NCBI RefSeq assembly: GCF_000403845.2
Contig: NZ_KE159567.1
Coordinates: 566,911-630,910 of the forward strand
Origin: Eubacterium sp. 14-2
GTDB lineage: Bacteria > Bacillota > Clostridia > Lachnospirales > Lachnospiraceae
Direction: 5' to 3'
Length of the DNA stretch: 64,000 nucleotides
Shown one piece after another: positions 6,804 to 28,347 of the stretch. Position 1 is the stretch's first letter; each line of letters opens with the position of its first letter. The notes beneath the pieces are model-generated. The model saw nothing but the letters and a program-made list of their open reading frames with translations. It made no database searches and was not told the origin of the DNA. The position numbers and the translations under genes were made by a program.

Positions 6804-6909
6804 ACCGTTCCGGGATTCTGCTGAATAGAAAAGGTGTCTGATAGCAGCAGTCAGTAACCGTTCCGGGATTCTACTGAATAGAAAAGGTGTCTGATAACAG
6901 CAGCCAGTT
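6804..6909. repeat. 53-bp tandem duplication at the 3' end of the spore hydrolase
   Basis: Two adjacent copies (6804-6856 and 6857-6909) begin ACCGTTCCGGGATTCT and differ at only a few positions. The right copy contains the stop codon and last codons of the GH18 gene fragment (read on the minus strand); the left copy is a non-coding duplicate behind the stop. Confidence 0.85.
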
Positions 6910-7295
6910 TGCCCGAAAGAGCTGCATTATCTGCCAGTAGCCCATGCCCCGGAGCTGATACTCTCTGACCAGATCGAATTTAGCGGACAGGCTTCGTACA
7001 TCTTCAAACCATACTTCATGGGTGAGTCCTTCTGAAACATAGCGAAAATAAGGAGACTGGGCAGTTTCATCGTACTGGATAAGGGCATTTTGGGCAATAG
7101 CAATCTGGACAGCCTGAATATTTCCGATGGTGACGGCTTTTGAGGTACCCTGTACGAAAGGGAGCGTCCAGTCATAACCGTAATTGGGAATGCCAAGGCT
7201 GATTTTGGAAGCCGGGATTTTGGTCAGGGCGTATTCTACGACCTGACGGACTTTGTTGAGGGGTGCCACCGCCATGGGAGGGCCATATGTGTATC
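6871..7295 (-). pseudogene. C-terminal part of split LysM-GH18 spore hydrolase
   Basis: This minus-strand fragment (about 137 residues, reading GPPMAVAPLNKVRQV onward) is the C-terminal third of a glycoside hydrolase family 18 chitinase-like domain of the YaaH/SleL group, which attacks cortex peptidoglycan during spore germination. It contains the family motifs ISLGIPNYGYDW and the late GMGYWQIMQ strand. The N-terminal two thirds, with LysM, lie at 27613-28347, also on the minus strand. The ATG at 7275 lies inside the domain and is not a real start. Joining the two through the 10-bp core at 7286-7295 restores the motif WGYTYGPPMAVAP without loss or gain of a codon, so the gene is split by the integrated element rather than decayed. 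Confidence 0.93.
7286..7295. repeat. Left attachment core of the integrated element
   Basis: TATGTGTATC here is identical to 27617-27626; flanking bases differ (A..A here, G..C there). The serine recombinase gene ends 16 bases to the right. The copy falls inside the codons for Y-T-Y of the split GH18 gene. Confidence 0.85.
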
Positions 7296-7311
7296 ACCAT
7301 ACAGGATTCCG

Positions 7312-9138: not shown

Positions 9139-9594
9139 TTATAACATTTCAATTACAGCGAGATTTGGTTCAAAATAGATAATATAATTGTCCAGTGTGG
9201 TAAATACCCCATATTTGGAGCGGTATTTTTGGATGGATTCTGCCAGAAATTCCTGAGTTACCTCCAGGTATTCAGCCATTTCAGCCAGGCTGTGGCATCC
9301 GTGCCGGTAGGAATTTATAATTCCGTTTAATCCAATCAGACGGTTGTAGGACCAGAGGCGTGCCTTCTGTTCCTGTTTGCGGTTCTGAACATTGTTCTGG
9401 TTCAGAATATTTCCAACACTGGTATAATAATGGCCCAGTTCTTCTGCCAGTACGCATTTCTTTTCTGTTGTGGTCAGAGTGTCCTTAATAGCAATTCTGT
9501 TTCCCTTGATTCTCCCATCGCAGGATTTCAGAGGCTTCTCCTTTGTAATCAGATGGTTGCTGTCTGCCTCTATAAGCAATTCTGTGTAATCCAT
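9139..9594 (-). CDS. ImmA/IrrE-like metallopeptidase, degenerate zinc motif
   Basis: 151 residues, read in the same direction as the XRE repressor gene just upstream. The segment VLAEELGHYYTSVGN near residues 48-62 aligns with the ImmA/IrrE HExxH helix, but the first histidine is replaced (AEELGH). In ICEBs1-type elements ImmA cleaves the ImmR repressor and so switches on the element; the adjacent placement here supports the same role. The changed motif makes catalysis uncertain, although related genes of Clostridia share it in my recollection. AGGGGTGA lies before the ATG. Probably co-transcribed with the repressor (61-base gap). Confidence 0.78.
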   Translation of the reverse strand: MDYTELLIEADSNHLITKEKPLKSCDGRIKGNRIAIKDTLTTTEKKCVLAEELGHYYTSVGNILNQNNVQNRKQEQKARLWSYNRLIGLNGIINSYRHGCHSLAEMAEYLEVTQEFLAESIQKYRSKYGVFTTLDNYIIYFEPNLAVIEML

Positions 9595-9655: not shown

Positions 9656-10156
9656 TCAGAAATTTTCATCATCCATAATGTCTTCATCATGCCGGATCAT
9701 TTCTTCCGTTATTTCCACATCCGTGCGTTCGTGAGCGGCGTTTAAAAGATACGGAGAAGTATCTTCCGTCACTTTGGAGGGACGGTGAGAACTGTTATAA
9801 GTATAAACAGCGGAAGACGTCTGTTCGATGGAACGCTCCCATTCCTTCGCCAGAGTGAAATCTACCATTTCCCGGCCATGGTCGTCAAGCACACGGTATT
9901 TTTTTATGATGTTTTCAAATTCTTCCGGAGTCGCCCTGTCTTTATACTGTTCTTCTGTTCCGTCCTGAAACAGATAATTGGCATCACAGTGCAGGATGTG
10001 AAACAAATCATATAAAAGGGCAGCACGGGGGGAATTTACATCTGTTTCCCAGTTTCCAATGGCCCCTTTGCTGACTCCCAGCATTTCAGCAAGCTGAGGC
10101 TGGGTAATTCTGAGGGATTCTCTTTTTTCCTTTAATCTTGTTCCAAAACTCACCAT
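9656..10156 (-). CDS. XRE-family repressor of the element
   Basis: 166-residue regulator with an N-terminal helix-turn-helix (TQPQLAEMLGVSKGAIGNWE, about residues 18-37) and a long acidic C-terminal region ending in DEDIMDDENF. It probably binds the ACTGAGA operators in the divergent promoter region to its right and holds the tail genes and its own gene in check. An upstream in-frame GTG (10162) overlaps the AGGAGG site, so the ATG at 10156, five bases after AGGAGG, is the better start. The neighbouring ImmA-like protease is the likely anti-repressor. Inferred from layout; the operators are visible in sequence. Confidence 0.88.
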   Translation of the reverse strand: MVSFGTRLKEKRESLRITQPQLAEMLGVSKGAIGNWETDVNSPRAALLYDLFHILHCDANYLFQDGTEEQYKDRATPEEFENIIKKYRVLDDHGREMVDFTLAKEWERSIEQTSSAVYTYNSSHRPSKVTEDTSPYLLNAAHERTDVEITEEMIRHDEDIMDDENF

Positions 10157-10177
10157 TGTCACCTCCTGTACGATAAA

Positions 10178-10311: not shown

Positions 10312-10464
10312 GTGAAAACCGACTGTTCCAGAAAAGAGGTTTTGGCAGGAAAGAGACAACAGGTACAACCAGCAGTACATAAAATGTACAAAGGAGCAGG
10401 AGGAATTTATGGAACATGCAGCAAAACAGTTCAGGCTTGGGTCTGCTTCTGTAATAATCTGTGA
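10312..10464 (+). CDS. Possible 50-residue early protein (GTG start)
   Basis: First frame after the rightward promoter: GTG at 10312, nine bases after AGGAGG, encoding about 50 residues (MKTDCSRKEVLAGKRQ...). It overlaps the next small gene out of frame by 56 bases. Early regions of such elements commonly carry small basic DNA-binding proteins, but I do not recognise a family. Its ribosome site is convincing; coding status is uncertain. Confidence 0.4.
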   Translation: MKTDCSRKEVLAGKRQQVQPAVHKMYKGAGGIYGTCSKTVQAWVCFCNNL

Positions 10465-11091: not shown

Positions 11092-11096
11092 GAAGT

Positions 11097-11154
11097 CGGG
11101 TGTCGGAAGCTGGGACGGAAATGTCCGGCCAGTTACCGGCACCCGTCCTGTTTT
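11097..11154 (+). terminator. Terminator of the early operon
   Basis: CGGGTGTCGG (11097-11106) pairs, with one G-T wobble-type mismatch, with CCGGCACCCG (11136-11145), followed by TCCTGTTTT. It separates the regulatory genes from the tail operon. Confidence 0.6.
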
Positions 11155-11180
11155 CTCCTGCTCCATAAAAAATAAAAGTT

Positions 11181-11225: not shown

Positions 11226-11362
11226 ACTAAGCCATGGAAGATACACATGGCAGTACCGTTCCTTAGCGGTATGTTACCGGGCGCGCCGGGCAGTGGAGGG
11301 AGGTGAACGGAAAAAGATATGAAACATGGAAAGCAGAAAGATGAAGTAAGAGGTGTGCAGTA

Positions 11363-11809: not shown

Positions 11810-11854
11810 AGTATCATTCAGGAGAAATTTCAGCGAAAGGAAAGGTGAAGTACC

Positions 11855-12095: not shown

Positions 12096-13406
12096 ATGGC
12101 TTTAGGCGGAGGTACATTTATAACTCAGAACAGAGAACTTCCGGGAACTTATATCAATTTTGTTTCGGCAGCATCTGCAAATGCAGCTTTATCTGAGCGG
12201 GGAATTGCAACTATGCCGCTGGAACTGGACTGGGGGATTTCCGGTGAAGTATTTGAAGTGAGCAGCGAGGATTTCCGGGAGAACAGTATGGAGATTTTCG
12301 GTTATGACTACGGACATGATAAAATGAAAGGGCTGCGGGATCTGTTTTTGAATACCAGAATTCTGTATGGGTACAGGCTGAACGGAAACGGAACAAAGGC
12401 ATCCAATGATTATGGAGAAGCAGTCTGCAGCGGAGAGCGCGGAAATGACCTGAAAATTACGATTCAGGTAAATGCAGATGATGAATCTCTTTTTGATGTG
12501 AAGACCATACTGGGAATCGAAGTGGTGGATGAACAGACTGTTTCCGGGGCAGGAGAACTTGTTTCCAATGCGTATGTGAAATGGAAGCCGGAGGCAGCAC
12601 TGGCGCCGGCTGCGGCAGTGCCTCTCAAAGGAGGTACCAATGGTACGGTGGAAGGTGGTTCCTACCAGAACTATCTGGATAAAATTGAAGGTTATACCTA
12701 CAACACCATGGGAGCAGTCCTGGAGGATGAAGTCACAAAAGCCCTGTTTGTTTCTTTTGCGAAGCGTATGCGGGATGAAATGGGTGTGAAATTTCAGCTT
12801 GTTCTTCACGATTATGCAAAAGCAGATTACTGCGGTGTCATCAGTGTGAAAAATGAAACCACAGATGGAGAATGGAGTGGGGGAAGCCTTGTTTACTGGA
12901 CAACAGGGGCGCTGGCAGGATGTGAAGTGAACAGGAGCTGTCAGAACAGAATTTATGACGGAGAGTTTACGGTGAAGGCTGATTTTACACAGAACGATCT
13001 GAAAAAAGCCATTGGAACAGGTGAATTTGTATTCCACAAAGTGGGAGCAGATGTTCGGGTGTTAAAGGATATTAACACCATGGTTACTGTTTCTGATACT
13101 CAGGGTAATGTATTTAAGGAAAATCAGACTGTCCGGGTAATCGACCAGATTGGAAACGATATGGCTGTGCTGTTCAATACAAAATATCTGGGAGCTGTTC
13201 CAAACGACAATGCCGGACGGGTATCTCTTTGGTCCGATATTGTGTCCCATCACAGACAGCTGGAACAGATACGGGCAATTGAGAATTTTTCAGATGCGGA
13301 TGTGACTGTGCAGCAGGGTGCGGATAAAAAAAGCGTGGTAGTGTCCGACGCGGTGACCGTTGTAAATGCCATGGACAAATTATACATGGTCTGCACCATT
13401 ATGTAG
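12096..13406 (+). CDS. xkdK: Contractile tail sheath protein (XkdK-like)
   Basis: 436 residues. The N-terminal MALGGGTFITQNRELPGTYI and repeated beta-strand/Gly-rich composition are typical of XkdK-type sheath subunits, as is the C-terminal portion that includes VTVVNAMDKLYMVCTIM. Sheath subunits polymerise around the tube and contract to drive it through a target envelope. Slightly shorter than many phage sheaths but complete with family ends. Followed 17 bases later by the tube gene. The presence of a sheath makes this an R-type (contractile) particle. Confidence 0.93.
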   Translation: MALGGGTFITQNRELPGTYINFVSAASANAALSERGIATMPLELDWGISGEVFEVSSEDFRENSMEIFGYDYGHDKMKGLRDLFLNTRILYGYRLNGNGTKASNDYGEAVCSGERGNDLKITIQVNADDESLFDVKTILGIEVVDEQTVSGAGELVSNAYVKWKPEAALAPAAAVPLKGGTNGTVEGGSYQNYLDKIEGYTYNTMGAVLEDEVTKALFVSFAKRMRDEMGVKFQLVLHDYAKADYCGVISVKNETTDGEWSGGSLVYWTTGALAGCEVNRSCQNRIYDGEFTVKADFTQNDLKKAIGTGEFVFHKVGADVRVLKDINTMVTVSDTQGNVFKENQTVRVIDQIGNDMAVLFNTKYLGAVPNDNAGRVSLWSDIVSHHRQLEQIRAIENFSDADVTVQQGADKKSVVVSDAVTVVNAMDKLYMVCTIM

Positions 13407-13423
13407 GAAAGGAGTGTTGAAGT

Positions 13424-13894
13424 ATGGGAAATGCAGTTATGAGCGCAAATGACGCCATATATGGGGGCCTTGCGGAGTGTTATATTACCATTGGCGCCCG
13501 GCGTTATAATTTTATGAGCATGACAAATTTTGAGAGCAAATGGGAAGTAAATATCACGGATGTGGCAATTCTTGGAAAAGTGGGAATGGGTCATAAAGCA
13601 GCCGGCGGAAAGGGAACCTGGAGCGGAACTGCCCATTATAACCAGTCCATATTCCGAAAGATGGCAGATGAATACCAGAAAACCGGAAGAATGCCTTATT
13701 TTGAGATTCAGGTAAGTAATGAGGATCCCGGAAGCAGCGCCGGACGTCAGACCATTACCCATCATGACTGTCTGTGTGACAGTTTCATACTGGCCAAATT
13801 TGAAGCCGGAGAGGAAATCATGGATGAAGAAATTTCCGGAACGTTTGAAAGCTGGGATATGCCGGAACAGTTCAGTGAGCTGAACGGATATTAA
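13424..13894 (+). CDS. xkdM: Tail tube protein (XkdM-like)
   Basis: 156 residues. Motifs SANDAIYGGLAECYITIGAR, SMTNFESKWEVNI and VAILGKVGMGHKAAGGKGTW are characteristic of XkdM-family tube proteins, which stack into the inner rigid tube. The gene follows the sheath in the universal sheath-tube order, with GGAGTG before the ATG. In related phages the chaperone gene follows immediately; here a lipoprotein cassette is inserted between. Confidence 0.93.
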   Translation: MGNAVMSANDAIYGGLAECYITIGARRYNFMSMTNFESKWEVNITDVAILGKVGMGHKAAGGKGTWSGTAHYNQSIFRKMADEYQKTGRMPYFEIQVSNEDPGSSAGRQTITHHDCLCDSFILAKFEAGEEIMDEEISGTFESWDMPEQFSELNGY

Positions 13895-13910
13895 AGGGAA
13901 AATTATACAC

Positions 13911-13939
13911 GTGACAAATTCTCCTGTATATGATAAAAT
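13911..13939 (+). promoter_or_regulatory. Private promoter of the moron lipoprotein
   Basis: GTGACA 13911-13916, 17-base spacer, TAAAAT 13934-13939, immediately downstream of the tube gene and about 33 bases before the lipoprotein ATG. It would allow expression while the tail operon is repressed. Confidence 0.7.
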
Positions 13940-13971
13940 TCAACTATCAATACAAAGGAGGAAGTAAAACT

Positions 13972-14655
13972 ATGAAAAAGAAAATTGCTGCATTATTACT
14001 GGGCATGGCAATGTGCCTGTCAGTAACTGCCTGCGGCGGAGGAAATGACAAGTCAGATAAAACGGAGGATACCGTCAAAACAGAGCAGAGTGAAGATTCC
14101 GCTTCAGATGCAGAAGACAGTGAGGAGACAAAGGAAGATGCGGCGTCTGATGACAAAGATAAGTCAGAAGATCCGGAGCAGGCAGGGGATGCCGGAGAAC
14201 AGGAAACACCGGAGGAGCCTGAGGAAGAGGAAAAGATTTATAATATCGGAGAAACTGCTACCTTAAAAGACTGGGATATTTCTGTAACAGATGTTCAGAT
14301 TGTGGAATCCATTGCAGCAGATTATGGTTCTTTCAGTCCGGATGAAGAAGGAAACAGATATGTACAGGTATTTGCGACAATTACCAATAACGGAAAGCAG
14401 GCAGGAAGTTTCCTTCCCATGATTGGAATGGGAGATGATGTGTCTGTAAAAGTTCTGTTTGGGGACGGATATGAATTTGCTTCTGTAAATTTACTGGGAT
14501 ACAGCAACGATCTTCATGATTCCAAAGTAAATCCGTTATCTTCCCAGACAGGGGAAATAGCATTTGATGTTCCGGAAACTGTGGCTTCTTCAGAGGAAGA
14601 ACTGCTGATACAGTTCAATTCCGGTAATGATTCCGTGAAATTTAAACTCAGATAA
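13972..14655 (+). CDS. DUF4352-type lipoprotein, moron in the tail operon
   Basis: 227-residue predicted surface lipoprotein. Signal peptide with lipobox SVTAC (Cys about residue 22), then an extreme acidic linker rich in Glu/Asp/Ser (about residues 25-100), then a beta-rich domain (NIGETATLKDWDISVTDVQI, later YVQVFATITNNGK) typical of DUF4352/immunoglobulin-like lipoprotein domains. Start chosen at ATG 13972 after AAAGGAGG; 14 further codons upstream lack a ribosome site. It is not a tail protein: it has its own promoter and terminator and interrupts the tube-chaperone pair. Such morons usually change the lysogen surface, for example to protect the host from the same particle; that role here is inference. 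Confidence 0.85.
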   Translation: MKKKIAALLLGMAMCLSVTACGGGNDKSDKTEDTVKTEQSEDSASDAEDSEETKEDAASDDKDKSEDPEQAGDAGEQETPEEPEEEEKIYNIGETATLKDWDISVTDVQIVESIAADYGSFSPDEEGNRYVQVFATITNNGKQAGSFLPMIGMGDDVSVKVLFGDGYEFASVNLLGYSNDLHDSKVNPLSSQTGEIAFDVPETVASSEEELLIQFNSGNDSVKFKLR

Positions 14656-14691
14656 TCTGGTCACGTGGACAGAAAATTGCATAACAGCAGT

Positions 14692-14723
14692 AAGAAGAGA
14701 GCCTGTTTTCAGGCTCTCTTCTT
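14692..14723 (+). terminator. Strong terminator of the moron cassette
   Basis: A perfect 14-bp stem (AAGAAGAGAGCCTG 14692-14705 with CAGGCTCTCTTCTT 14710-14723) around a TTTT loop. It is symmetrical and followed by only a short T stretch, so some late transcripts must pass it to reach the downstream tail genes. Confidence 0.85.
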
Positions 14724-14782
14724 CTATGGAAAATTCTTCCGGATTTCATTTAAAGATATATTCAGAAAGAGAGGATAAATTT

Positions 14783-15214
14783 ATGTCAAAATTCAGCAGA
14801 TTTATGAAAGAAAACAAATTTAACAGAGAAAATGGAACTTATGCGCCTACTTCCAGCTTAACCGATGAGACGGGAAAGCCGCTGGAATGGGAATTCAGGC
14901 ACGTTTCCTCCAAAGAAAACGAAGATCTGAGAGATTCCTGCACCATAGAGGTACAGGTAACAGGAAAACCGAACCTGTTTCGTCCCAGAGTAAATTCTTC
15001 TCAGTACCTGGTAAGGCTTATAGCCACTTCCACAGTATTTCCGGATTTGTATGATGCGGGCCTGCAGGATTCCTATGGTGTGAAAACGCCGGAAGATCTT
15101 GTGTATGCCCTTGTGGATGATCCTGGGGAATACCAGAGACTTGGAAGCTGGATTCAGAAATTCCAGGGATTTGACAAGGCCCTGGAAGAAAAGGTGAATG
15201 AGGCAAAAAACTGA
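14783..15214 (+). CDS. xkdN: Tail assembly chaperone (XkdN-like), frameshift to 15405
   Basis: 143 residues in the zero frame (SKFSRFMKENKFNRENGTYA..., LVRLIATSTVFPDLYDAGLQ), matching XkdN. Start at ATG 14783 after AGAGAGGA. The stop is preceded by the perfect slippery heptamer A AAA AAC (15205-15211) in the correct phase. A -1 shift continues through CTG 15211 for 64 codons to TGA 15403-15405 (LIEGGDWEANYVYYALHKL, then AFVIAAINIKTEND and a basic tail), producing a 207-residue product. This mirrors the lambda gpG/gpGT pair: both products coat the tape measure during tail assembly. The extension ends six bases before the tape measure start. Confidence 0.9.
   Translation: MSKFSRFMKENKFNRENGTYAPTSSLTDETGKPLEWEFRHVSSKENEDLRDSCTIEVQVTGKPNLFRPRVNSSQYLVRLIATSTVFPDLYDAGLQDSYGVKTPEDLVYALVDDPGEYQRLGSWIQKFQGFDKALEEKVNEAKN
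15205..15211 (+). promoter_or_regulatory. Programmed -1 frameshift site AAAAAAC
   Basis: The zero-frame codons read GCA AAA AAC TGA, so the heptamer A AAA AAC is in shift phase. The -1 frame is open for 64 codons to 15405 and encodes the expected extension of tail chaperones. There is no other start signal for that extension. Confidence 0.87.
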
Positions 15215-15410
15215 TTGAGGGAGGGGACTGGGAAGCAAACTATGTGTATTATGCCCTCCATAAGCTGCATATCACACCCTCCCGGTGGCTTGCGATGGAG
15301 GGGCAGGAAAAAGCATTTGTCATAGCAGCAATCAATATAAAGACAGAAAATGATAAAAAAGAGAGGAAAAAGGCCAAATCTCAGGCCAGGAGAAAAGGAA
15401 GGTGAAATAG

Positions 15411-18721: not shown

Positions 18722-18733
18722 GAGGAAATGCAG

Positions 18734-19732: not shown

Positions 19733-20177
19733 TGCGGTAGAACTGGTAAAAATTATGAAAAAGGCAGCCCTTGAAGCGGTGGAGGCCTCAAAACCGGTAA
19801 ACCTGTGTTTTGGAACTGTGGAATCTGTTTCGCCTCTGAAAATTAATGTGGAGCAGAAAATGACGCTTGGAGAGGCCCAGCTGATTCTCACCGGAAATGT
19901 GATGGATTACCGTATAAAAATTGCAGTGGACATGGATACGGATACAGCTTCTGGCTCCCATGTCCATTCTGTGGAAGGAAAAACTTTGCCTGGTGCGATG
20001 GGGCATGACCACGAATTCCGGGGAACAACCGGCGAGGCCGGAGCTGCCCATAACCATCGTATTTCCGGGGAACAGGAAATTATCATTAAAAATGGGCTTG
20101 CAGCAGGAGAGAAAGTGCTGCTGCTCAGGCAGCAGGGCGGTCAGAAATATTTTGTATTGGAAAGGATTGGGATATGA
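19725..20177 (+). CDS. DUF2577 baseplate protein (XkdR-like position)
   Basis: About 150 residues. TTG 19725 lies eight bases after GGAGGTG; the GTG at 19716 overlaps that site and is less likely. The sequence has the DUF2577 pattern: an N-terminal helix (DAVELVKIMKKAALEAVEAS), an OB-like domain with LILTGNVMD and a His/Gly-rich middle (GSHVHSVEG, GHDHEFRG, GAAHNHR). It is part of the hub or spike region in PBSX-type baseplates. Overlaps the next gene by four bases. Confidence 0.83.
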   Translation: MSDAVELVKIMKKAALEAVEASKPVNLCFGTVESVSPLKINVEQKMTLGEAQLILTGNVMDYRIKIAVDMDTDTASGSHVHSVEGKTLPGAMGHDHEFRGTTGEAGAAHNHRISGEQEIIIKNGLAAGEKVLLLRQQGGQKYFVLERIGI

Positions 20178-20575
20178 TACCGGCAGAGACAGGTTTTTTG
20201 GAAGAGGATTTTGAAATAGAACAGGAACCCAGTAAAAATTACAGAATGGATATAAAAAAGCAGAGGGTACAGGGAAAAACAGATGGACTGGAGGCCATGA
20301 AGCAGGTGGTATTTAAGATTCTGAGCACGGAACGGTATCAGTATCTGATTTACTCCTGGGATTACGGGATTGAGCTTCTGGACTTATTTGGAGAACCGGT
20401 AAGCTATGTCTGCCCGGAACTGGAATACAGAATAACGGAGGCATTGCAGCAGGATGACCGGATTGAAGAAGTGGACGGATTTGAGTTTGAGGTAAATGGA
20501 AGTACAGTGAAGGCTTTGTTTACGGTACATACTGTTTTCGGAAACCTTAAGGCAGAAAGAGAGGTGGATATTTAA
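20174..20575 (+). CDS. xkdS: DUF2634 baseplate wedge protein (XkdS-like)
   Basis: 133 residues containing the gp25-like core: VQGKTDGLEAMKQVVFKIL, ERYQYLIYSWDYGIEL and the C-terminal strand EVNGSTVKALFTV. XkdS/gp25 proteins are conserved components of contractile injection baseplates and are needed for sheath attachment. Its start overlaps the previous stop (ATGATA) and its stop shares one base with the baseplate J start. Confidence 0.9.
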   Translation: MIPAETGFLEEDFEIEQEPSKNYRMDIKKQRVQGKTDGLEAMKQVVFKILSTERYQYLIYSWDYGIELLDLFGEPVSYVCPELEYRITEALQQDDRIEEVDGFEFEVNGSTVKALFTVHTVFGNLKAEREVDI

Positions 20576-21636
20576 TGTATGAAGATATTATTTATGAAGA
20601 CATACTGGAGAGAATGCTGGATCATGTTCCGGATGACATGGATAAACGGGAAGGTTCTGTGATATATGATGCGCTGGCTCCGGTTGCGATTGAACTTCAG
20701 CTGATGTATCTGGAACTGGACGTGATTTTAAAGGAAACTTTTGCAGACACAGCCTCCAGAGAATTTTTGCTCCGAAGGGCAAAAGAGCGTGGAATCGTGC
20801 CGAAAGCCGCAGCGAAGGCTGTGCTGAAAGGAGTTTTCACTCCGAATACTCTGAAGCTGGAGCCAGGGACACGTTTCAGCTGTGAGGAGCTGTATTATGA
20901 GGTACTGGAACAGCCGGAGGAAGGCATCTGCCATTTTCAGTGTGAGACAGAAGGAACTGTGGGCAACAGTACCTTTGGAAAGCTGATTCCGGTGGAGTAT
21001 ATTCCAGGTCTCGAAACCGTGGAACTGACAGAGCTTCTGATCCCTGGGGAAGATGAAGAAGATACGGAACTTTTCCGTAAAAGGTATTTTGATTCCTTTC
21101 ATTCTCAGGCGTTTGGCGGAAATAAAAAGGACTATACGGATAAAACGCTGGCTATTCCCGGTGTGGGAGCGGTAAAGGTAACACCGGTATGGAACGGCGG
21201 AGGTACTGTAAAACTGACTATTCTGGACGCAGGTTATGGGAAAGCAGATGAAACGCTGCTGAAGCGTGTACAACAGGAGCTGGACCCGCAGCAGGACGGT
21301 AAGGGAGAAGGGATTGCACCCATTGGCCATGTGGTAACAGTGGATACGCCTCAGGAATTTTCCATAGAGGTTTCCGTACAGGCAGTTTATGATACCGGAT
21401 ATGGATTTGAGGCACTGCATTCCCGGATGGTGCAGGCGGTGGAAAATTATCTGGGACAGCTGCGGGAACTCTGGGCGGAGCAGGATTCACTGGTGGTCAG
21501 AATTGCCCAGACAGAGGCAAGGCTCCTTGCAATTGACGGAATTATAGATATAACCTCAGTTGCGTTAAATGGAAAAACTGAAAATATTATTCTGGAAGAA
21601 GGGCAGCTTCCGGTATGCGGAGGTGTGGTATCATGA
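20575..21636 (+). CDS. xkdT: Baseplate J-like wedge protein (XkdT-like)
   Basis: 353 residues, baseplate J/gp47 family. Clear motifs are DDMDKREGSVIYDALAP near the N-terminus, RRAKERGIVPKAA, and the central ELLIPGEDEEDTELFRKRYF and KDYTDKTLAIPGVGAVKVTP. The protein forms the wedge of the contractile baseplate. Overlaps the following gene by four bases (ATGA), as usual for this pair. Confidence 0.93.
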   Translation: MYEDIIYEDILERMLDHVPDDMDKREGSVIYDALAPVAIELQLMYLELDVILKETFADTASREFLLRRAKERGIVPKAAAKAVLKGVFTPNTLKLEPGTRFSCEELYYEVLEQPEEGICHFQCETEGTVGNSTFGKLIPVEYIPGLETVELTELLIPGEDEEDTELFRKRYFDSFHSQAFGGNKKDYTDKTLAIPGVGAVKVTPVWNGGGTVKLTILDAGYGKADETLLKRVQQELDPQQDGKGEGIAPIGHVVTVDTPQEFSIEVSVQAVYDTGYGFEALHSRMVQAVENYLGQLRELWAEQDSLVVRIAQTEARLLAIDGIIDITSVALNGKTENIILEEGQLPVCGGVVS

Positions 21637-22190
21637 TTAGAGAAGCAGACCTGATTTCCTTTCTTCCGGAATTTATGTGCGGCTACCTGGAACTGAGAAA
21701 GCTGCTGAGTGCACAGCAGCGGGAAGTACAGGCACTGGAGGATATGACAGAAATTTTGAAGAATAATCAGTTTATTCTCTCAGCAGATGAACAGGGAATA
21801 GAAAAATTTGAGACTATGCTGGGGATTGCGGCGCTGGATGACGATTCTCTGGAAAACCGCAGATTTCGTGTCCTGTCTCGATGGAATAATGCCATTCCAT
21901 ATACGGAACAGGTATTGCGGAACAGGCTGGATACTCTCTGCGGTGCGGATGGTTATTCTCTGGAAATCCAGAATCAGGAATACCGGATAAAAATCCGTGT
22001 TGCCCTGAAAAGTAAAAAGAATTATAAAATGGTGGAAGAAATGCTGAAAGAGACAGTTCCGGCAAATATGGTGTTGGATCTGTCTTTACTTTATAACCAG
22101 CATAAAACATTGAAACAGTTTACTCACAGACAGCTTTCGGCATTTACCGGAAAGCAGATAAGGAATGAGGTGTTGATTTATGGCAAATGA
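21633..22190 (+). CDS. xkdU: DUF2313/YmfQ-type baseplate protein (XkdU-like)
   Basis: 185 residues from ATG 21633 (after GGAGGTG). IREADLISFLPEFMC, EQGIEKFETMLGIAALDDDS and ENRRFRVLSRWNNAIPYTE are the family signature; it links the baseplate wedge to the fibres. The upstream ATG at 21615 has no ribosome site and lies inside the baseplate J gene. Overlaps the fibre gene by 11 bases. Confidence 0.9.
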   Translation: MIREADLISFLPEFMCGYLELRKLLSAQQREVQALEDMTEILKNNQFILSADEQGIEKFETMLGIAALDDDSLENRRFRVLSRWNNAIPYTEQVLRNRLDTLCGADGYSLEIQNQEYRIKIRVALKSKKNYKMVEEMLKETVPANMVLDLSLLYNQHKTLKQFTHRQLSAFTGKQIRNEVLIYGK

Positions 22191-23100
22191 AACAGTAAAT
22201 TACGGTTATCCGAAACCGGAAGAAGATGATTTTTATGATATTAACCAGTTCAATCAGGCAATGGATATGATTGACGGTGATTTGAAAAAAACAGAGGAGA
22301 TGAAGCAGAACAAGCTGGATATCGGCGCTTTTACAGGGAACATTGACGTGCTGGGAGAAGGCGGACTGCCCCGGACTTCCAGTGTAAGCTGGTGCCGGTC
22401 AGAACTGGTGTCAGGAACTTTACCGGTATTATCTGATGCGGCATATTGCTTTTCGCTGGAAACCTGTGTGGCAGCAGAAAATGAAAGGGATTCCGCCAGA
22501 GTTCAGAGAGCTGTATTACATGAAACAGCAAATATCAGAATTCTGGAACGTATGTATGTGGACGGACAGTGGCATGAATGGAAGGAATTGCTTCAGAAAG
22601 ATGGAGATTTGAAAGATGCAACCGTTACTTTTGACAGTGGGGATAATGAGAGCCCTGCGGAATGGGCAGAGGTTGCGCCTGTGGAAGGCGGAGAGAAACA
22701 GGGCAGTCTGTGGCAGAAGGTTTCCCTGTTTGCCAGAAATCTGCGGTATCTCTGGAAACTGTGCGGGACGAATGATATTTCCGGGCTGGCAGACGGGACG
22801 CTGACGGGGGCGGTCAGTAAGTTAAACACGGATTTGTCAGAAAAAGCAAATCTGTCCGGGGAAAACCGTTACGATTCTACAAATCTGGTTTCCAAAATTG
22901 TAGGTGTGAACAAAGATTCTTTTGTACATGCCCAGTTTGTGGCAGAGTCACAAAACAAAGCGGATTCTACAAGCCGGGCAGGCTATGGATTTCACAATGA
23001 TGGTATCACAGGTGGATTCCTTTATCTTGATAATGACCACAAATTGAAATTTATTGATGCATTTGGCGGAGTCCACGTAATTATAATGGAATCGCCCTGA
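22180..23100 (+). CDS. Tail fibre with exchangeable C-terminus (expressed cassette A)
   Basis: 306 residues. The N-terminal part (MANETVNYGYPKPEEDDFYD, about residues 1-215) attaches to the baseplate and contains pyocin-knob-like repeats (GLPRTSSVSWCRSELVSG). At residues 217-220 comes LNTD, encoded by the shufflon site TAAACACGGAT (22823-22833). The remaining 85 residues are the exchangeable receptor-binding tip now in place (ending AFGGVHVIIMESP). Three other tips with the same LNTD entry lie silent to the right. Recombination at the site keeps the reading frame, so the particle can change its target range. Confidence 0.9.
   Translation: MANETVNYGYPKPEEDDFYDINQFNQAMDMIDGDLKKTEEMKQNKLDIGAFTGNIDVLGEGGLPRTSSVSWCRSELVSGTLPVLSDAAYCFSLETCVAAENERDSARVQRAVLHETANIRILERMYVDGQWHEWKELLQKDGDLKDATVTFDSGDNESPAEWAEVAPVEGGEKQGSLWQKVSLFARNLRYLWKLCGTNDISGLADGTLTGAVSKLNTDLSEKANLSGENRYDSTNLVSKIVGVNKDSFVHAQFVAESQNKADSTSRAGYGFHNDGITGGFLYLDNDHKLKFIDAFGGVHVIIMESP
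22823..22833 (+). repeat. Shufflon site 1 (plus orientation)
   Basis: TAAACACGGAT inside the expressed fibre gene; flanked by GT on the left and TTGTC on the right. The same 11 bp occur at 23434-23444 (minus), 25029-25039 (plus) and 25779-25789 (minus). Confidence 0.85.
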
Positions 23101-23130
23101 AATAGTGTTTCATATCAGTTTACACAAAAT

Positions 23131-23444
23131 TTAAAAGAATCTGATTCCATAATTACCAGAATTAAAATAAAACTGTGCCAGTCGTGTATCTCCTGCATAT
23201 GAAAAAGCAATTCCGGCTCCGTATGCTGCTCCATATATAAATGTCAGGGCACAGATGGAAGGGCCACCTGTGCTTCCCATGATACTCTCGAAAGTATTAA
23301 CAGAAGTCGGATTGATTTCTATTTTTGGAATAACTTTGGCATCAAGAAATCCTTCAATTCCTCCTTCAATAGTCACGCCTGTGCAGGCCTTAAAAGATAT
23401 TGTTGAATATTTCCAGTTTTTTGCAACTATCAAATCCGTGTTTA
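23131..23444 (-). CDS. Silent fibre cassette B (inverted)
   Basis: Minus-strand coding segment without its own start. It enters through LNTDLIVAKNWKYSTIS and runs about 100 residues to a stop at 23131, ending YFNSGNYGIRFF. The tip resembles cassette D (both contain an AFSYA/VFSYA stretch near the end), so they are related domains. Its tail faces the tail of cassette A with a 30-base gap. Inversion between site 1 and site 2 would place it in frame behind the constant fibre N-terminus. Confidence 0.82.
23434..23444 (-). repeat. Shufflon site 2 (minus orientation)
   Basis: ATCCGTGTTTA on the plus strand is the inverse of TAAACACGGAT. It begins silent cassette B and is the inverted partner of site 1; the invertible segment between them is about 0.6 kb. 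Confidence 0.85.
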
Positions 23445-23486
23445 GTGAACTGTGAAAAATGGAAGCTGAGAACCGGGAAGTTGTGT

Positions 23487-23515
23487 TTGCAAACAATATC
23501 AGGATATGGTATATT
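23487..23515 (+). promoter_or_regulatory. Promoter of the type I toxin
   Basis: TTGCAA 23487-23492, 17-base spacer, TATATT 23510-23515. It gives an mRNA with a leader of about 115 bases before the toxin ATG, a normal arrangement for type I toxins whose long leader keeps translation low. Confidence 0.72.
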
Positions 23516-23638
23516 CGATACAGGAGTAATCGCGTTACAGGGTGGACCAGCCTCCCGCCTTTCTGAAATGGCATTCGCCATTGTGTCGTTCGGCACGAAT
23601 CCCTTCATGGGAAATACGGAAAGAGGGAGGTGGTGGAT

Positions 23639-23734
23639 ATGAGTACATATGAAGTATTGAGCCTGCTTATTTTAGGCGGTACTTTTCTCGTTTCACTGCT
23701 TGCCTACATAGATAGGAATAACAGGCGCAAATAA
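23639..23734 (+). CDS. Type I toxin, holin-like small membrane peptide
   Basis: 31 residues: MSTYEVLSLLILGGTFLVSL followed by LAYIDRNNRRK. One hydrophobic helix followed by a short basic tail is the form of the TxpA/Fst-like holin-like toxins of Firmicutes. GGGAGGTGG precedes the ATG. Too short for ordinary gene calling. A convergent RNA with a strong promoter overlaps its 3' end, as expected for the antitoxin. Placed between silent cassette B and the recombinase, it may keep the element from being lost. The toxin family call is from memory of the peptide form. Confidence 0.82.
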   Translation: MSTYEVLSLLILGGTFLVSLLAYIDRNNRRK

Positions 23735-23735
23735 A

Positions 23736-23825
23736 AATAAGCCTACCTTGTTACTTAGCCGGTACAGGTAGGCTTATTGCCCATCCGGGAGGCTAACCAC
23801 TTTGTGGGCGGTTGCTCCTTTTGAT
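23736..23825 (-). ncRNA. Antitoxin RNA convergent with the type I toxin
   Basis: Minus-strand promoter: TTGCAA at 23860-23855, 17-base spacer, TATAGT at 23837-23832. The transcript would start near 23825 and end at the hairpin 23778-23736 (AATAAGCCTACC / GGTAGGCTTATT, perfect 12-bp stem) followed by TTTATTT. The terminator begins two bases past the toxin stop, so toxin and antitoxin share complementary 3' ends. A further hairpin (GGAGGCTAACCACTT region) lies within the RNA. Confidence 0.75.
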
Positions 23826-23907
23826 GTCTTTACTATAGCATACAGGCGAATTTATTGCAAGGATTTTGTTCCGTTATGATATGATTGTGCCGGAGGTGGT
23901 TACAGTT

Positions 23908-24906
23908 ATGGACATAAGAGAGCAGATAATTCATAAAGTCATGGAAGCTCTGGAAGGGCGTGTGGATACAGGCGTAACAGATACGGTTCAGGATATTCTT
24001 GTAATTGAACTGAATAATTATGAGGTTCAGGAACGGTGTACAGAAATAGCAACGGTGGATAACAGTGCTGAAAATATGCTGAAAAAATTTCTTGCCACAA
24101 AGCGCATTGAAGGGATTGCGGAATCTACCCTACACAGATACGCGGATGAGAACCGGAAGCTGATACAGTTTCTTGGAAAGCCCCTGTATGAGGTGACAGC
24201 TTACGATATTCGGTTTTATCTGTCATATCGCAGGGAAAAGACCGGTGTAAAAGTGAGTAACCGGACACTGGACGGTATGCGCAGGTGCTACTCCAGCTTT
24301 TTTGGCTGGCTGTCGGCAGAAGGGCTGATTGGCCGGAATCCATGCGCGGCTATTAAACAGATTAAGTATCGAAAAAAGGTAAAGAAGCCCTATTCGGCGG
24401 CGGAAATGGAAAAGTTAAGAATGGCCTGCGGGAATATCCGGGACCTGGCATTACTGGATTTCCTGTACTGTACGGGCTGCAGAGTATCAGAGGTGGCCAG
24501 GCTTAACATAGATGATATAGACTTTGAGCGGATGGAATGTACTGTGCTGGGGAAAGGGAATAAAGAGCGCACTGTTTACCTTTCCGAAGTAGCGGCCATG
24601 CACCTGAAAGATTATCTTTTCGCGAGAACAGATAAAGGAGAAGCCCTGTTTTCGGGAAAGGGGACGGAGAGGCTGGGGAAAAACGGGATAGAAGTGCTTC
24701 TGAAACGAATCGGAGGGAAAGCGGGGGTGTCCAATGTACATCCGCATCGATACCGCAGGACGCTGGCAACCAACCTTCTGGACCGCGGAATGAATATACA
24801 GGATGTGGCGGCGATACTTGGACATGCAGACCTGAAAACCACACAGGTATACTGTTATATATCTCAGAAGAATGTAAAGACAGCATACAACAAGTATGCA
24901 ATATAA
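23908..24906 (+). CDS. Tyrosine recombinase, probable shufflon invertase
   Basis: 332 residues. N-terminal SAM-like core-binding domain (about residues 50-140, LKKFLATKRIEGIAESTLHR) and C-terminal catalytic domain with the Arg of TGCRVSEVARL, HRYRRTLATNLL (H-x-x-R), LGHADLKTTQVY and the nucleophile Tyr in that final segment. ATG 23908 follows GGAGGTGG; the 14 upstream codons in frame lack a ribosome site. The element already has a serine integrase at its end, and this gene lies between the two pairs of inverted fibre sites, so its likely job is inversion at TAAACACGGAT (comparable to Rci of the R64 shufflon). It resembles XerC/XerD but is not in the dif context. Confidence 0.88.
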   Translation: MDIREQIIHKVMEALEGRVDTGVTDTVQDILVIELNNYEVQERCTEIATVDNSAENMLKKFLATKRIEGIAESTLHRYADENRKLIQFLGKPLYEVTAYDIRFYLSYRREKTGVKVSNRTLDGMRRCYSSFFGWLSAEGLIGRNPCAAIKQIKYRKKVKKPYSAAEMEKLRMACGNIRDLALLDFLYCTGCRVSEVARLNIDDIDFERMECTVLGKGNKERTVYLSEVAAMHLKDYLFARTDKGEALFSGKGTERLGKNGIEVLLKRIGGKAGVSNVHPHRYRRTLATNLLDRGMNIQDVAAILGHADLKTTQVYCYISQKNVKTAYNKYAI

Positions 24907-24936
24907 GGGATAAATACATCATATGAGAGCAGGAAG

Positions 24937-24962
24937 ACTCCGGGATACAGGCCGGAGTTTTT
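24937..24962 (+). terminator. Terminator of the shufflon recombinase gene
   Basis: ACTCCGG (24937-24943) pairs with CCGGAGT (24952-24958), followed by TTTTG. It isolates recombinase expression from silent cassette C. Confidence 0.82.
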
Positions 24963-25028
24963 GTTGTACCCGGAAATATCGGAAGGGGAGAAAACGGAAA
25001 AAATCGGAGAGAAAAAGCGGGAATCTGC

Positions 25029-25039
25029 TAAACACGGAT
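25029..25039 (+). repeat. Shufflon site 3 (plus orientation)
   Basis: TAAACACGGAT preceded by GC and followed by ATTG. It opens silent cassette C. Confidence 0.85.
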
Positions 25040-25486
25040 ATTGTGCCGGGATACATCTCCTGTTCTTATTCTTTTTGTGAACAGCATGGCTGGTATCGAA
25101 TAGCAAAGACAGAAGGTGTATATCACGACAATTCATGCCTGATAAGCGCAAAGCGATATTATAATAACATGCCTCCGGAGTATCAGAAAATACAATTTTT
25201 TGGTGTATACACTTTGAGAAAGTTTATAAGTATATCATCTGCTTCCCTTATGCATGCCTGGACAAAAATCAGAGAAACATGGGACGAAACAAATAATGTA
25301 TCTTACCTGGAGATTTATCAAAATACTGATAATGCTAATATGTGGCTGATTTCAATAGAAGATGCCCTTTCTCCTGAAGGTAACATTCAAAGCTGGAAAA
25401 CTATACCATCCGTTCTGACTCAGGAGACAATAAATGGTGTGAAAGTGCTTGCTTTGTTAGAACTTCCTGCAAATAATCCGGCATAA
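25029..25486 (+). CDS. Silent fibre cassette C
   Basis: Coding segment without a start of its own: LNTDIVPGYISCSYSFCEQH, then GWYRIAKTEGVYH, ending LLALELP-type residues and NNPA, about 150 residues. The frame continues upstream to 24923 but that part is only intergenic and terminator sequence. GWYRIAK is a common opening of phage-fibre tip domains. In plus orientation, like site 1, so it can be expressed only after another inversion turns it round relative to the constant region or moves the constant part. Unrelated to cassettes B and D. Confidence 0.8.
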
Positions 25487-25493
25487 AATTAGT

Positions 25494-25789
25494 TCAAACC
25501 ATCGTTTCTGTCCAGTCTGCAACATTTTTAAAAATGATACCACTGACTTTTCTGTAAAAAATGATTCCAGGAAAAGCGTAAGAAAATACAATAGCAGAAG
25601 CAAATTCCCAGATACCGTAAGACTGAACAATCATTTTTATGCTGCCGCCGGCGGTTACGTTTACAATATATGTTTCATTTCCAAGCGGAATCTTTAAAAA
25701 AATATCTTTTACAATATCATCAAGGTTTAAAGTAGGAGGGTATTCAAAAAATATTTTTCGCACTATGGTGTTTTGTAAATCCGTGTTTA
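25494..25789 (-). CDS. Silent fibre cassette D (inverted)
   Basis: Minus-strand segment entering with LNTDLQNTIVRKIFFEYPPT and ending KNVADWTETMV at 25494, about 97 residues, without a start of its own. Its tail faces the tail of cassette C (seven-base gap), just as A and B face each other. Contains VTAGGSIKMIVQSYG and VFSYAFPG, reminiscent of cassette B. Inversion between site 1 and site 4 (about 3 kb) would express it. Confidence 0.8.
25779..25789 (-). repeat. Shufflon site 4 (minus orientation)
   Basis: ATCCGTGTTTA on the plus strand, inverse of TAAACACGGAT. Together with site 3 it bounds the C/D pair; together with site 1 it bounds the whole 3-kb variable region. Confidence 0.85.
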
Positions 25790-25833
25790 GCAAACCAACC
25801 CACAACCCCACCATATTTTTGCCTGAACAAAAG

Positions 25834-25862
25834 CACTTAAAGGCCGACTTTAAGTGTTTTTC
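25834..25862 (+). terminator. Terminator at the right end of the shufflon
   Basis: CACTTAAA (25834-25841) pairs with TTTAAGTG (25849-25856), then TTTTTC. It closes the fibre region before the lysis genes. Confidence 0.8.
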
Positions 25863-25895
25863 TTATGCAAAAAAATAAAAAAAGGGGGTGAATCA

Positions 25896-26237
25896 ATGTA
25901 TGTGATATGGAATTTCATCCAGCAGAACTGGCTGGAATGGCTGTTTGGCATTGTAACATTCATTCTTGGTTGTCTTTACCGGGATGTGAAGAAACGTCTG
26001 AAAGATGAACAGCAGAAAAGCACAGCCACCGCAGAAGGGGTGAAGAGCCTGCTCCGGGAGAGCATTGTCCAGAATTACAACAAATACCAGGACAGGGAAT
26101 GCTGCCCGATTTATGCCAAAGAATCCGTGAAGAAGGTATATGAATCCTACCATAATCTCGGCGGCAATGATGTGGCGACCAAACTGTATAAAAAACTTCT
26201 GGATATGCCGGAAGAACCAAAAGAAAGAGAGGAATGA
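25896..26237 (+). CDS. Small one-helix phage protein before the holin
   Basis: 113 residues from ATG 25896 (after AGGGGGTGA). One membrane helix near the N-terminus (LEWLFGIVTFILGCLY) followed by a charged helical part and the conserved-looking YNKYQDRECCPIYAKESVKK. I recall similar proteins just before holin genes in Clostridial phages; function unknown, perhaps a holin partner. Its stop overlaps the next frame. Confidence 0.65.
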   Translation: MYVIWNFIQQNWLEWLFGIVTFILGCLYRDVKKRLKDEQQKSTATAEGVKSLLRESIVQNYNKYQDRECCPIYAKESVKKVYESYHNLGGNDVATKLYKKLLDMPEEPKEREE

Positions 26238-26239
26238 CT

Positions 26240-26467
26240 ATGAGCAAAAAAACAGAGAAATGGATGAAAGCCGCCGCAGTCCGGGCAGTAAAGACCATGG
26301 CACAGAGCGCAGTGGCCCTGATTCCCGCGGCGGCCGCCATAGGAGCGGTGGACTGGCAGGTGGTTCTGGGAACCGCAGCACTGGCCGGGGTGGTATCCCT
26401 GCTTACGTCTCTGGCAGGACTGCCGGAGGTACCGGAAGAAAATGAGAGAAACGAAAAACAGCATTGA
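26240..26467 (+). CDS. Holin (r1t-like)
   Basis: 75 residues from the ATG at 26240; an in-frame ATG lies six bases upstream (26234). Two hydrophobic helices (TMAQSAVALIPAAAAIGAV and VVLGTAALAGVVSLLTSLAG), a charged N-terminus and a charged C-terminus are the form of r1t-type phage holins. It should open the membrane so that the amidase next door can reach the wall and release the particles. Position between small membrane protein and endolysin supports this. Confidence 0.85.
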   Translation: MSKKTEKWMKAAAVRAVKTMAQSAVALIPAAAAIGAVDWQVVLGTAALAGVVSLLTSLAGLPEVPEENERNEKQH

Positions 26468-26490
26468 TTTTAAGAAAGGGAGGCAGAACT

Positions 26491-27561
26491 ATGAGCAACA
26501 TAACCATTAACAGAAACTTTGTTTCAACCAGAAATACCTATATCAGCCGGAATGTGCCGAAATATATTGTGATTCACGAAACAGATAATTATGCCGGAGG
26601 AGCCGGGGCCAGACGACACGCCGAAGCCCAGTTCCTGGGCCATCTTGGTACCTCGGTACAGTATTATTCCGGTTCTGACGGTATTTATCAGGCAGCGGAA
26701 CATACGGACGGGACGTATTCCATCGGAATCGAATATGGCGGTAATCATGCTGTCCGTGACGCAAATAACCGCAATACCATTAACATCGAAATCTGTGTAA
26801 ACAGCGACGGGGATTATGAAACAGCCCGTGCAAATGCCATTGCACTGGTGAAATATCTGATGGAGGAAACCGGGATTCCTGCAGACCGGGTCATCCGTCA
26901 TTTTGACGCAAAAGGGAAATACTGTCCCCGGAAGATGATGGACAGTCCGGATTTATGGGAAGATTTCAGAAAACAGATTTCCGGACAGGCCGGGGAGGAA
27001 CCGGTACAGCCGGAAAATGAGAAGCCGGAGAGACCTGCAGAAGATAATCAGAAAGAAATCTGGTATCGCGTGGGTTCCGGTTGGAAAGAGGGAATCTGTC
27101 AGAAGCAGACCGGGGCGTATCATAATAAAGATTTTGCCATTGCAGACTGTAAGCCGGGGCAGTATGTTTATGACGAAAAGGGGACCGTGATTTATTCCGG
27201 AGGAAAAGAGGAAGAAAGTGAGAAAGATAAGGATTCCGCCTGCGGCTACACACAGAAACAGTTTATCCTTGATGTGCAGAAAGCCACCGGATCCGCTGCG
27301 GATGGAATCGCTGGAGATGAGACGCTCGGAAATACGGTAACCGTGTCCGCTGTGAAAAACAGAAAACATACGGCAGTCATTTATATTCAGAAACGACTGA
27401 ATGCACTGGGGTATCACTGCGGAGAAGCAGATGGAATTGCCGGGCCGAAATTCACAGGGGCAGTCAACCGCTATCAGAAGGAGATATTGAATTATAAAAG
27501 TTCTGACGGAGAAGTTACAGCAGGAAAGAAGATGTGGAAATCTTTGCTGGGGATGATTTGA
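26491..27561 (+). CDS. Endolysin: N-acetylmuramoyl-L-alanine amidase
   Basis: 356 residues from ATG 26491 (after GGGAGG). N-terminal amidase_2/PGRP domain (about residues 1-165): VIHETDNYAGGAGARRHAEA with the first zinc His, HFDAKGKYCPRKM with later zinc ligands. After a charged linker come a wall-associated segment (about 190-240, YRVGSGWKEGICQKQTGAYH) and a peptidoglycan-binding domain (about 260-355, FILDVQKATGSAADGIAGDE and YHCGEADGIAGPKFTGAVNR). It cuts the amide between MurNAc and the stem peptide. Last gene of the late operon and of the element. Confidence 0.93.
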   Translation: MSNITINRNFVSTRNTYISRNVPKYIVIHETDNYAGGAGARRHAEAQFLGHLGTSVQYYSGSDGIYQAAEHTDGTYSIGIEYGGNHAVRDANNRNTINIEICVNSDGDYETARANAIALVKYLMEETGIPADRVIRHFDAKGKYCPRKMMDSPDLWEDFRKQISGQAGEEPVQPENEKPERPAEDNQKEIWYRVGSGWKEGICQKQTGAYHNKDFAIADCKPGQYVYDEKGTVIYSGGKEEESEKDKDSACGYTQKQFILDVQKATGSAADGIAGDETLGNTVTVSAVKNRKHTAVIYIQKRLNALGYHCGEADGIAGPKFTGAVNRYQKEILNYKSSDGEVTAGKKMWKSLLGMI

Positions 27562-27612
27562 CAGGCAGCGTTTAAAAGCGCTGCATGGAAGAGATAAAAT
27601 GCAGCCTGTATG

Positions 27613-28347
27613 TCAGTATGTGTATCCCCACTCATATGTCATAAGAAGAACAGAATCCGCAGCTTCTCCCAACAGCCCGTAATCTTTGCCTTCATACAGC
27701 AGCCCGGTCTGGTTGTCAGAAGTTTTCGGAGCCAGTGCCACGGAAACCGGATAACCCAGTTCATTTACTGCTGTCCGCACGTCGCGTACAAAATTCACGA
27801 AAGGGATTTTATCCTCCGGAAGAATGTATTCAAAATCAATGTCAACACCTTCAAAACCCCGCTCTGTGATCTGGGCACGCAGATTTGCAATCAGATTTTG
27901 TTTTGCAGTTTCATTGTTTACCACCTGAGAAATCAGGTAATTGCTGAACTGTCCCGAAGGGCCGAAAGGAGTCAGAGTCAGAACAGGAGAGGTACCGGAG
28001 GATTTTGCAGCCGAAATCATGAAAGTGTCATCCAGTGCAGGAGGAATCAGCTCGCCTTCCGTTGTAAATCCATAAGAGAAAACAAACAGTTCAGAGAGCC
28101 AGGGAAGAGTCTGTTCCAGGACCCATCTGCTGATAAAAGGGTAGGCATATCCTCCGGTAATTACTTCATAATTGCCGGCTGTCTCTGAATCAGGCGGGTT
28201 TTCCGTGGACAAAAGAAGGGCCTGCCCCACAGCCAGCGGATAAGGGTACGGGATCTGATTATTGTAAATCACAGACTGGGCAGAAATTCCGTGGGAGGCC
28301 GCAATGGTATCTACGGTATCACCGGGACGTACAATATAAATTTCCAT
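27613..28347 (-). pseudogene. N-terminal part of split LysM-GH18 spore hydrolase
   Basis: 244 residues: one LysM domain (IYIVRPGDTVDTIAASHGIS, about residues 1-46) followed by the first two thirds of a GH18 barrel. The catalytic motif is present as GVDIDFEYI (DxxDxxE), so the enzyme part is intact to the break. The frame ends at WGYTY plus a stop created by element sequence. The remaining third lies at 6871-7295 on the same strand. Together they would give about 381 residues, a normal size for a single-LysM SleL/YaaH-type protein that loosens cortex peptidoglycan in spores. The promoter side of the gene (28348 and beyond) is undisturbed. Confidence 0.93.
27617..27626. repeat. Right attachment core of the integrated element
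   Basis: TATGTGTATC, identical to 7286-7295. The element spans 20,331 bp from core to core. Excision by exchange at this core leaves one copy and the continuous codons W-G-Y-T-Y-G-P-P. Confidence 0.85.

Follow-up and report, generated by a model that had tools for sequence, protein, structure and literature searches.

Is a spore gene that has been split by a mobile element lost to its host, or is it put together again when the spore is made? The question is raised by a 64,000-nucleotide stretch of the genome of Eubacterium sp. 14-2 (contig NZ_KE159567.1, positions 566,911 to 630,910; hereafter the window), in which a LysM-GH18 gene of the SleL/YaaH type on the minus strand is split by a 20.3-kb element with a 10-bp core at each end. 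We consider it quite probable that a gene-intervening element of the skin/SPbeta type has inserted here into a sleL/yaaH-type spore gene and is excised by its recombinase together with an element-encoded factor. An earlier reading of the sequence (the original prediction) held that the gene is broken after W-G-Y-T-Y and resumes with G-P-P-M-A-V-A-P, that both junctions carry one 10-bp core, and that joining them yields an uninterrupted 381-residue protein. Reading both halves bears this out: the N-part runs from 28347 to 27613, reaching W-G-Y-T-Y and then a TGA within element DNA, the C-part starts with G-P-P-M-A-V-A-P at 7284 and ends at 6871, the core lies at 7286-7295 and 27617-27626, and the joined 244 and 137 codons give 381 residues with no stop in either half. 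The interval first proposed (6871-28347) does contain the element but includes the gene halves as well, without which the element extends from about 7296 to 27616. The 10-mer TATGTGTATC is not rare, with 12 copies in the 3.99-Mb genome (both strands counted), and by itself is thus no evidence; the evidence lies in the position of both copies, each placed precisely where one of the two halves of a single gene ends.

The gene has the LysM and GH18 domains of a SleL/YaaH spore glycosidase and a full-length match to solved members of the family. The best PDB match of an intact relative (L002) is 4s3k, Spore germination protein YaaH (E 4.3e-85), and 4s3j is matched at E 4.2e-76. The break cuts the GH18 domain between positions 182 and 205 of the Pfam profile. 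A search of the window's genome gave no second copy of the gene, the N-half having a single match and the C-half one further match, at 29% identity. The assignment to mother-cell genes rests on the SleL/YaaH homology, from the PDB search with the intact relative, and on a SigK-like promoter pattern.

The predicted join was compared with intact copies in 29 same-genus genomes, in 28 of which the N-half is present. In all 23 uninterrupted genomes the N match is followed directly by the C match, with zero bases between, exactly as the original prediction requires. The remaining five (the window's genome, G006, G027, G015 and G011) are interrupted, and in each the frame departs from the gene at or just past WGYT. 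With up to 50 first-look candidates scored per genome, a recombinase orthologue (63-100% identity) was found in exactly these five of the 29 genomes, adjoining the C-half; the next-best matches, 40% in G023 and 38% in G007, are both at the coat gene cotJC. In the window the recombinase is a large serine recombinase of 533 amino acids whose gene ends 16 bp from the left core, where the original prediction had placed it, and it is homologous to SprA of SPbeta at 29.8% identity. The att core is bordered by inverted-repeat arms, which are perfect in G006, G299 and G185. The window's own arms are weaker, scoring 9 compared with a mean of 6.0 and a maximum of 8 for the arms of others. Over 11 GH18 elements the own-arm scores sum to 115, compared with a mean of 78.6 for permuted partners (4 of 20000 permutations as high), an excess driven by the perfect arms of G006, G299 and G185. 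The insertion and its exact reversibility at the sequence level are therefore well supported, as is its recurrence at the same codon in further species and genera. A split mother-cell spore gene, exact restoration of the frame, an element-encoded recombinase near one end and att sites with a common core and inverted-repeat arms are among the features of a sporulation-gene-intervening element, and the skin-type plan suggested at the outset stands.

The elements of G015 and G011 are complete at 2.2 and 2.5 kb and consist of the recombinase and one small divergent open reading frame (ORF) for a protein of about 50 residues. Between these two species, nonsynonymous (dN) and synonymous (dS) divergence are 0.057 and 0.90 for the split GH18 gene, 0.154 and 0.97 for the recombinase, and 0.108 and 0.67 for the small ORF, and the two elements match at 88% over 124 bp of non-coding DNA. 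Since the minimal element is common to both at those dS values, it most likely predates their split; since dN is far below dS, the split gene, the recombinase and the small ORF have all stayed under purifying selection. Across the genus, the median dN/dS of the gene, taken over pairs with a defined dS, is 0.065 where neither copy is interrupted (92 of 253 pairs), 0.064 where one is (44 of 115) and 0.067 where both are (7 of 10). No gene half in the 28 genomes contains a stop codon. Furthermore, the unrooted order of the five recombinases, compared by eye, is that of the host genes, an agreement expected by chance in 1 of 15 cases.

The small ORF belongs to a protein family with the motif I-x-I-x-D-D followed by a helix. 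An iterated profile recovered 23 members in 41 element loci, the next score being E 0.54, and in 80 control loci (508 kb) nothing scored better than E 0.52. When members were left out one at a time, the held-out member ranked first in 23 of 23 loci and reached E <0.001 in 22 of them. Members were also found in viral contigs outside the profile set (L259, L260/L261 and L262); none was seen in the 7.5 kb taken from the Dorea phage DO134P1. The predicted fold is a beta-hairpin with a long helix, at a predicted local distance difference test score (pLDDT) of 70, i.e., of modest confidence, and a profile comparison with SprB gave no match. We regard the small protein as a candidate directionality factor. 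The gene split, the exact join, the att structure, the recombinase, the conserved small protein and the selection in two species can all be read directly from the sequence.

Beyond the genus, recombinase relatives were sought in 397 family genomes at E up to 1e-60, with up to three candidates scored per genome, so that the counts of places are lower bounds. Relatives occur in 29 of the genomes (the window's included) at no fewer than 32 places, of which, judged by the adjoining gene halves, 10 are in the GH18 gene, 14 in or beside cotJC, and 8 elsewhere or unplaced. The search for the GH18 gene itself was positive in 129 of these 397 genomes. In the recombinase tree, 14 GH18 rows (five from the genus and nine others) fall in one group with support 94/94, the sole other row inside it being G206; the cotJC rows are scattered and do not form one group. 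Both att types, GH18 and cotJC, have inverted-repeat arms.

The window's genome also has a split cotJC, a manganese-catalase-like spore coat gene, whose parts lie about 72 kb apart on one strand (G000:C1:1753865-1826373; L265-L269). Here the inverted-repeat arms surround another core, GGTAC, and no recombinase of the GH18-element clade adjoins. Within the genus, cotJC is in two parts in 15 of 29 genomes (five on one contig, about 18 to 80 kb apart, and ten on different contigs) and in one piece in nine, the other five being without a call. In G110 (L223), a recombinase beside the C-part of cotJC adjoins an uninterrupted GH18 gene on the opposite strand, and the two target genes are therefore neighbors there. 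Two related recombinases (L235 in G160 and L236 in G280) both adjoin similar membrane-protein genes, which may be a third insertion site, outside spore genes. On a broader reading, to which we give even chances, programmed DNA removal in gut Lachnospiraceae is an old and partly domesticated system, in which a lineage of recombinase and small factor is specialized on mother-cell coat genes (sleL-type and cotJC) and is reduced to two genes in some species; as the window's genome splits two such genes, cotJC by another element, the mother cell may edit at least two loci before the spore is complete.

The timing of excision was approached through promoter patterns. The SigK-like pattern upstream of the split gene occurs in 23 of the 28 related same-genus regions (the second gene copy in G018 omitted), compared with 0.6 expected from shuffles, and a SigE-type pattern in none of the 28. 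Upstream of the small ORF, ACAA[ACT]C-N6-8-CATANNNT was found in 10 of 23 regions, the window included (shuffle mean 0.01), and the SigK-like pattern in 7 of 23. Neither count is taken as proof of a promoter, because the peptide read across the motif is seen repeatedly (as QVQPAVHKMYKG in the window and as QVQPVVHNLYKG in L259), as though an eroded gene had its 3' end there; no start codon precedes the motif in the frame of this peptide in L214, L233 and L229. In SPbeta, ACAAAC-N9-CATATAAT lies just upstream of sprB, with yotM ending two bases before sprB, and a mother-cell promoter has been mapped upstream of sprB in the work cited here in part (PMC4191935).

An indirect sign of excision may lie in the assembly of G161, where one contig stops with the final base of the N-half plus core and another, which is 4323 bp long and contains the recombinase, stops with the final base of the recombinase side plus core. 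A third contig starts 326 bp before the end of the recombinase side plus core and crosses attL into the C-half. A 14-bp repeat should not break an assembly and a mixture would, so it looks as if integrated and excised DNA coexist. In G079 one contig ends at the same core point; its C-half was not found, nor was a recombinase at the cut-off used.

We infer that the small protein is the directionality factor, that it is expressed in the mother cell and that excision takes place during sporulation. In the proposed mechanism, the large serine recombinase, acting on attL and attR, would be switched to excision by the small element-encoded factor, and recombination within the 10-bp core would release the element as a circle and restore the 381-codon gene. 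The factor would be made in the mother cell, the element would then exit that terminal cell and SigK would transcribe the restored gene; the forespore would retain the element. Selection, the promoter-like sequences and the parallel with SPbeta make it likely that the element acts as a developmental switch, and its stripped-down relatives suggest that DNA removal during spore formation may be widespread. The link between the particle locus and germination that the original prediction raised would depend on this developmental timing.

Several observations weigh against this interpretation. The interrupted state needs 4 changes on the gene tree, a number as low in 147 of 500 shuffles, and, the interruption being patchy there, many lineages do without the element. 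At the same GH18 site, the 1.4-kb element of G277 (L222) has a truncated and reversed recombinase, possibly a locked and decaying case. Searches with the small proteins gave no Pfam match above the curated cutoff and no PHROGs match at E <0.01, and among 19 PDB matches returned by Foldseek at E up to 10, the two to SPbeta directionality factor chains (E 7.9 and 9.7) are not significant. The 23 SigK-like promoter copies are not independent, because the genes and upstream regions of one genus are related. The motif upstream of the small ORF is missing from both minimal elements, overlaps what seems to be the 3'-terminal part of an upstream gene, and in a held-out check was present in 1 of 3 independent viral loci. 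The predicted circle junction had no match in the viral contigs.

A rival explanation is an ordinary prophage-derived element that uses a conserved spore gene as attB; the gene would be dispensable, its function would be lost for as long as the element stays, and excision would be occasional and random. Besides the patchy presence on the gene tree, such an element is suggested by the repressor/metallopeptidase control region, by phages with related integrases, e.g., phiIBB_P123 (41%) and DO134P1 (40%), and by the short GH18 copies in G301 and G232, which appear frameshifted without any element. A dispensable gene is nonetheless hard to reconcile with two species that have a common minimal element and a dN/dS of about 0.06 over both halves at a dS of 0.9, or with elements that lost their cargo yet kept the recombinase, the small ORF and the att sites. 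In addition, 24 of the at least 32 recombinase relatives are in the GH18 gene or in or beside cotJC, i.e., at one of two spore-coat genes, and we regard this explanation as improbable. A little less improbable, in our judgment, is that excision is governed by DNA damage together with tailocin release rather than by sporulation. The small ORF of the window follows the repressor/metallopeptidase pair and has a SigA-like promoter pattern, and G006 retains its tailocin together with the same type of control region, both as a damage response would have it; the minimal elements, on the other hand, persist without tailocin and repressor. As the SPbeta factor responds to both DNA damage and sporulation according to the cited portion of PMC4191935, both forms of control may hold.

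It is also conceivable that the halves are expressed apart as a split enzyme and excision is unnecessary, given that both are open and under selection and that there is an ATG within the C-part, which follows the recombinase downstream on the same strand. The break, however, cuts through the GH18 domain, and the att arms and the recombinase/small-ORF pair would not have to be kept, which makes this the most doubtful of the explanations and a very improbable one.

Excision of the element in the mother cell would have a close precedent in SPbeta, which interrupts spsM of B. subtilis and has a homologous large serine recombinase, a small partner protein and a mother-cell gene that is restored. 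According to the part of PMC4191935 cited, SprA and SprB suffice for sporulation excision and a mini-SPbeta with only sprA and sprB excises, a form that resembles the natural 2.2-2.5 kb elements described here. The present case differs in its SleL-type target (cotJC for related recombinases), its Lachnospiraceae host and a small protein that is not detectably related to SprB by profile. The skin elements in sigK of B. subtilis and C. difficile likewise combine a mother-cell spore gene with a large serine recombinase, and that of C. difficile has a directionality factor (PMC5025042, cited in part). Unlike in those species, sigK is uninterrupted here, one 213-codon open frame covering model positions 19-226 of 227, and excision would not gate the whole late program, because the target is a structural or lytic spore gene. 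In the part of PMC5595907 cited, the gin element in gerE of Bacillus cereus (GirC/GirX) has an excision module independent of phage genes and candidate ImmR/ImmA homologues, and its excision requires the recombinase and an extra factor; it is 28.6 kb with three recombinases, whereas the smallest forms here have two genes. The yin element of Clostridium botulinum is, in the cited part of PMC10747680, a prophage-like insertion with a candidate factor in yabG, a SigK-controlled spore gene, and is described as unique, whereas GH18 elements recur in several species and genera.

The interrupted genes named in the cited parts of these papers are sigK, spsM, spoVFB, gerE and yabG (PMC5595907, PMC10747680, PMC4191935, PMC5025042), and vrin is also named (PMC4191935). 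Among the literature matches listed, a scope that leaves subscription papers and preprints outside, none described an element inserted in either a SleL-type gene or cotJC; in the cited part of an Epulopiscium paper, cotJC is a SigE-controlled coat gene and skin the only intervening element mentioned (PMC3416734). The present elements add the SleL-type gene and cotJC, in gut anaerobes, to the genes interrupted in this way, with repeated use of one site in different species. The natural two-gene elements are of a size that permits a direct test of whether recombinase and factor suffice, and with so many cases it can be asked if the host gains from a split spore gene or if the split does no more than shelter the element.

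Table 1. Features of the split gene and of the element, in positions of the window.
Feature	Position	Strand	Basis
3' part of LysM-GH18 gene, 137 codons from GPPMAVAP plus stop	6871..7284	-	Pfam GH18 profile positions 205-314; joined to the 5' part in 23/23 uninterrupted genomes
Left core TATGTGTATC (attL)	7286..7295	no strand	sequence match at start of C-part
Large serine recombinase, 533 aa	7312..8913	-	Pfam PF00239, PF07508, PF13408 (Resolvase, Recombinase, zinc-ribbon); nearest solved structure SPbeta integrase YokA/SprA, E 2.1e-49
ImmA-like metallopeptidase	9139..9594	-	PF06114; ImmA name by analogy
ImmR-like helix-turn-helix repressor	9656..10162	-	PF01381; ImmR name by analogy
Promoter-like motif ACAACC-N7-CATAAAAT upstream of small ORF	10365..10385	+	overlaps an apparently eroded coding stretch
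Candidate recombination directionality factor, 60 aa	10409..10591	+	small-protein family, one member per locus in 23/41 element loci
Tailocin-like cargo: sheath, tube, XkdN-like, tape measure, baseplate, fiber, holin, amidase	12096..27561	+	domain matches; homologous cluster in G006
5' part of SleL/YaaH-like LysM-GH18 gene, codons 1-244, ending WGYTY	27616..28347	-	Pfam LysM and GH18
Right core TATGTGTATC (attR)	27617..27626	no strand	sequence match at end of N-part
SigK-like promoter of split gene, AC-N15-17-CATANNNT	28371..28396	-	pattern in 23/28 same-genus upstream regions

The cargo of the window's element (Table 1) has the sheath, tube, tape measure and baseplate genes of a contractile PBSX-like tailocin. 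No head or packaging genes were found among the scanned element proteins, a set without the ORFs at 10675-12094 and 13930-14655 and the fiber ORFs at 23131-23574 and 24923-25814; one weak match of the amidase is to an endolysin family that is classed with head and packaging. Lysis genes and, among the fiber genes, a tyrosine recombinase are also inside the element. The skin element of B. subtilis also carries PBSX-like tail genes. In G006 the element lies on two contigs, is at least 38 kb long and has homologues of the sheath, tube, tape measure, baseplate and fiber genes at 37-86% identity (XkdQ 86%, sheath 75%), along with a repressor/metallopeptidase pair and the small ORF. In G185, of another genus, homologues from XkdQ to YmfQ (44-73%) are on the contig that bears its N-half. 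Such a tail cluster was absent from the fetched stretches of the other GH18 elements, several of which are broken over contigs. The 3.0-kb element of G027 has an ORF of 282 codons with a 111-residue match to the window's amidase. Five ORFs were scanned in each of G298, with matches to an ABC transporter and a histidine kinase, and G082, with matches to Cas6 and a radical SAM protein, and neither set includes tail genes.

As G015 and G011 keep only the recombinase and the small ORF, and as the cargo of G298 and G082 is unrelated, the element can persist without the tailocin. A tailocin passenger had been part of the original prediction; the tail genes are there, with homologues in G006 and in part in G185, but the passenger is dispensable and missing from G015 and G011. 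Judged from this distribution, the tailocin appears to be an older cargo, which some lineages have lost and others have replaced, and its induction may be separate, by way of the repressor/metallopeptidase switch.

Copies related to AAATCCGTGTTTAG at 22812 (inverted), 23432 and 25777 flank the tyrosine recombinase (23866-24906) and fiber-like ORFs on both strands, and the region from 22812 to 25800 is possibly a tail-fiber switching cassette.
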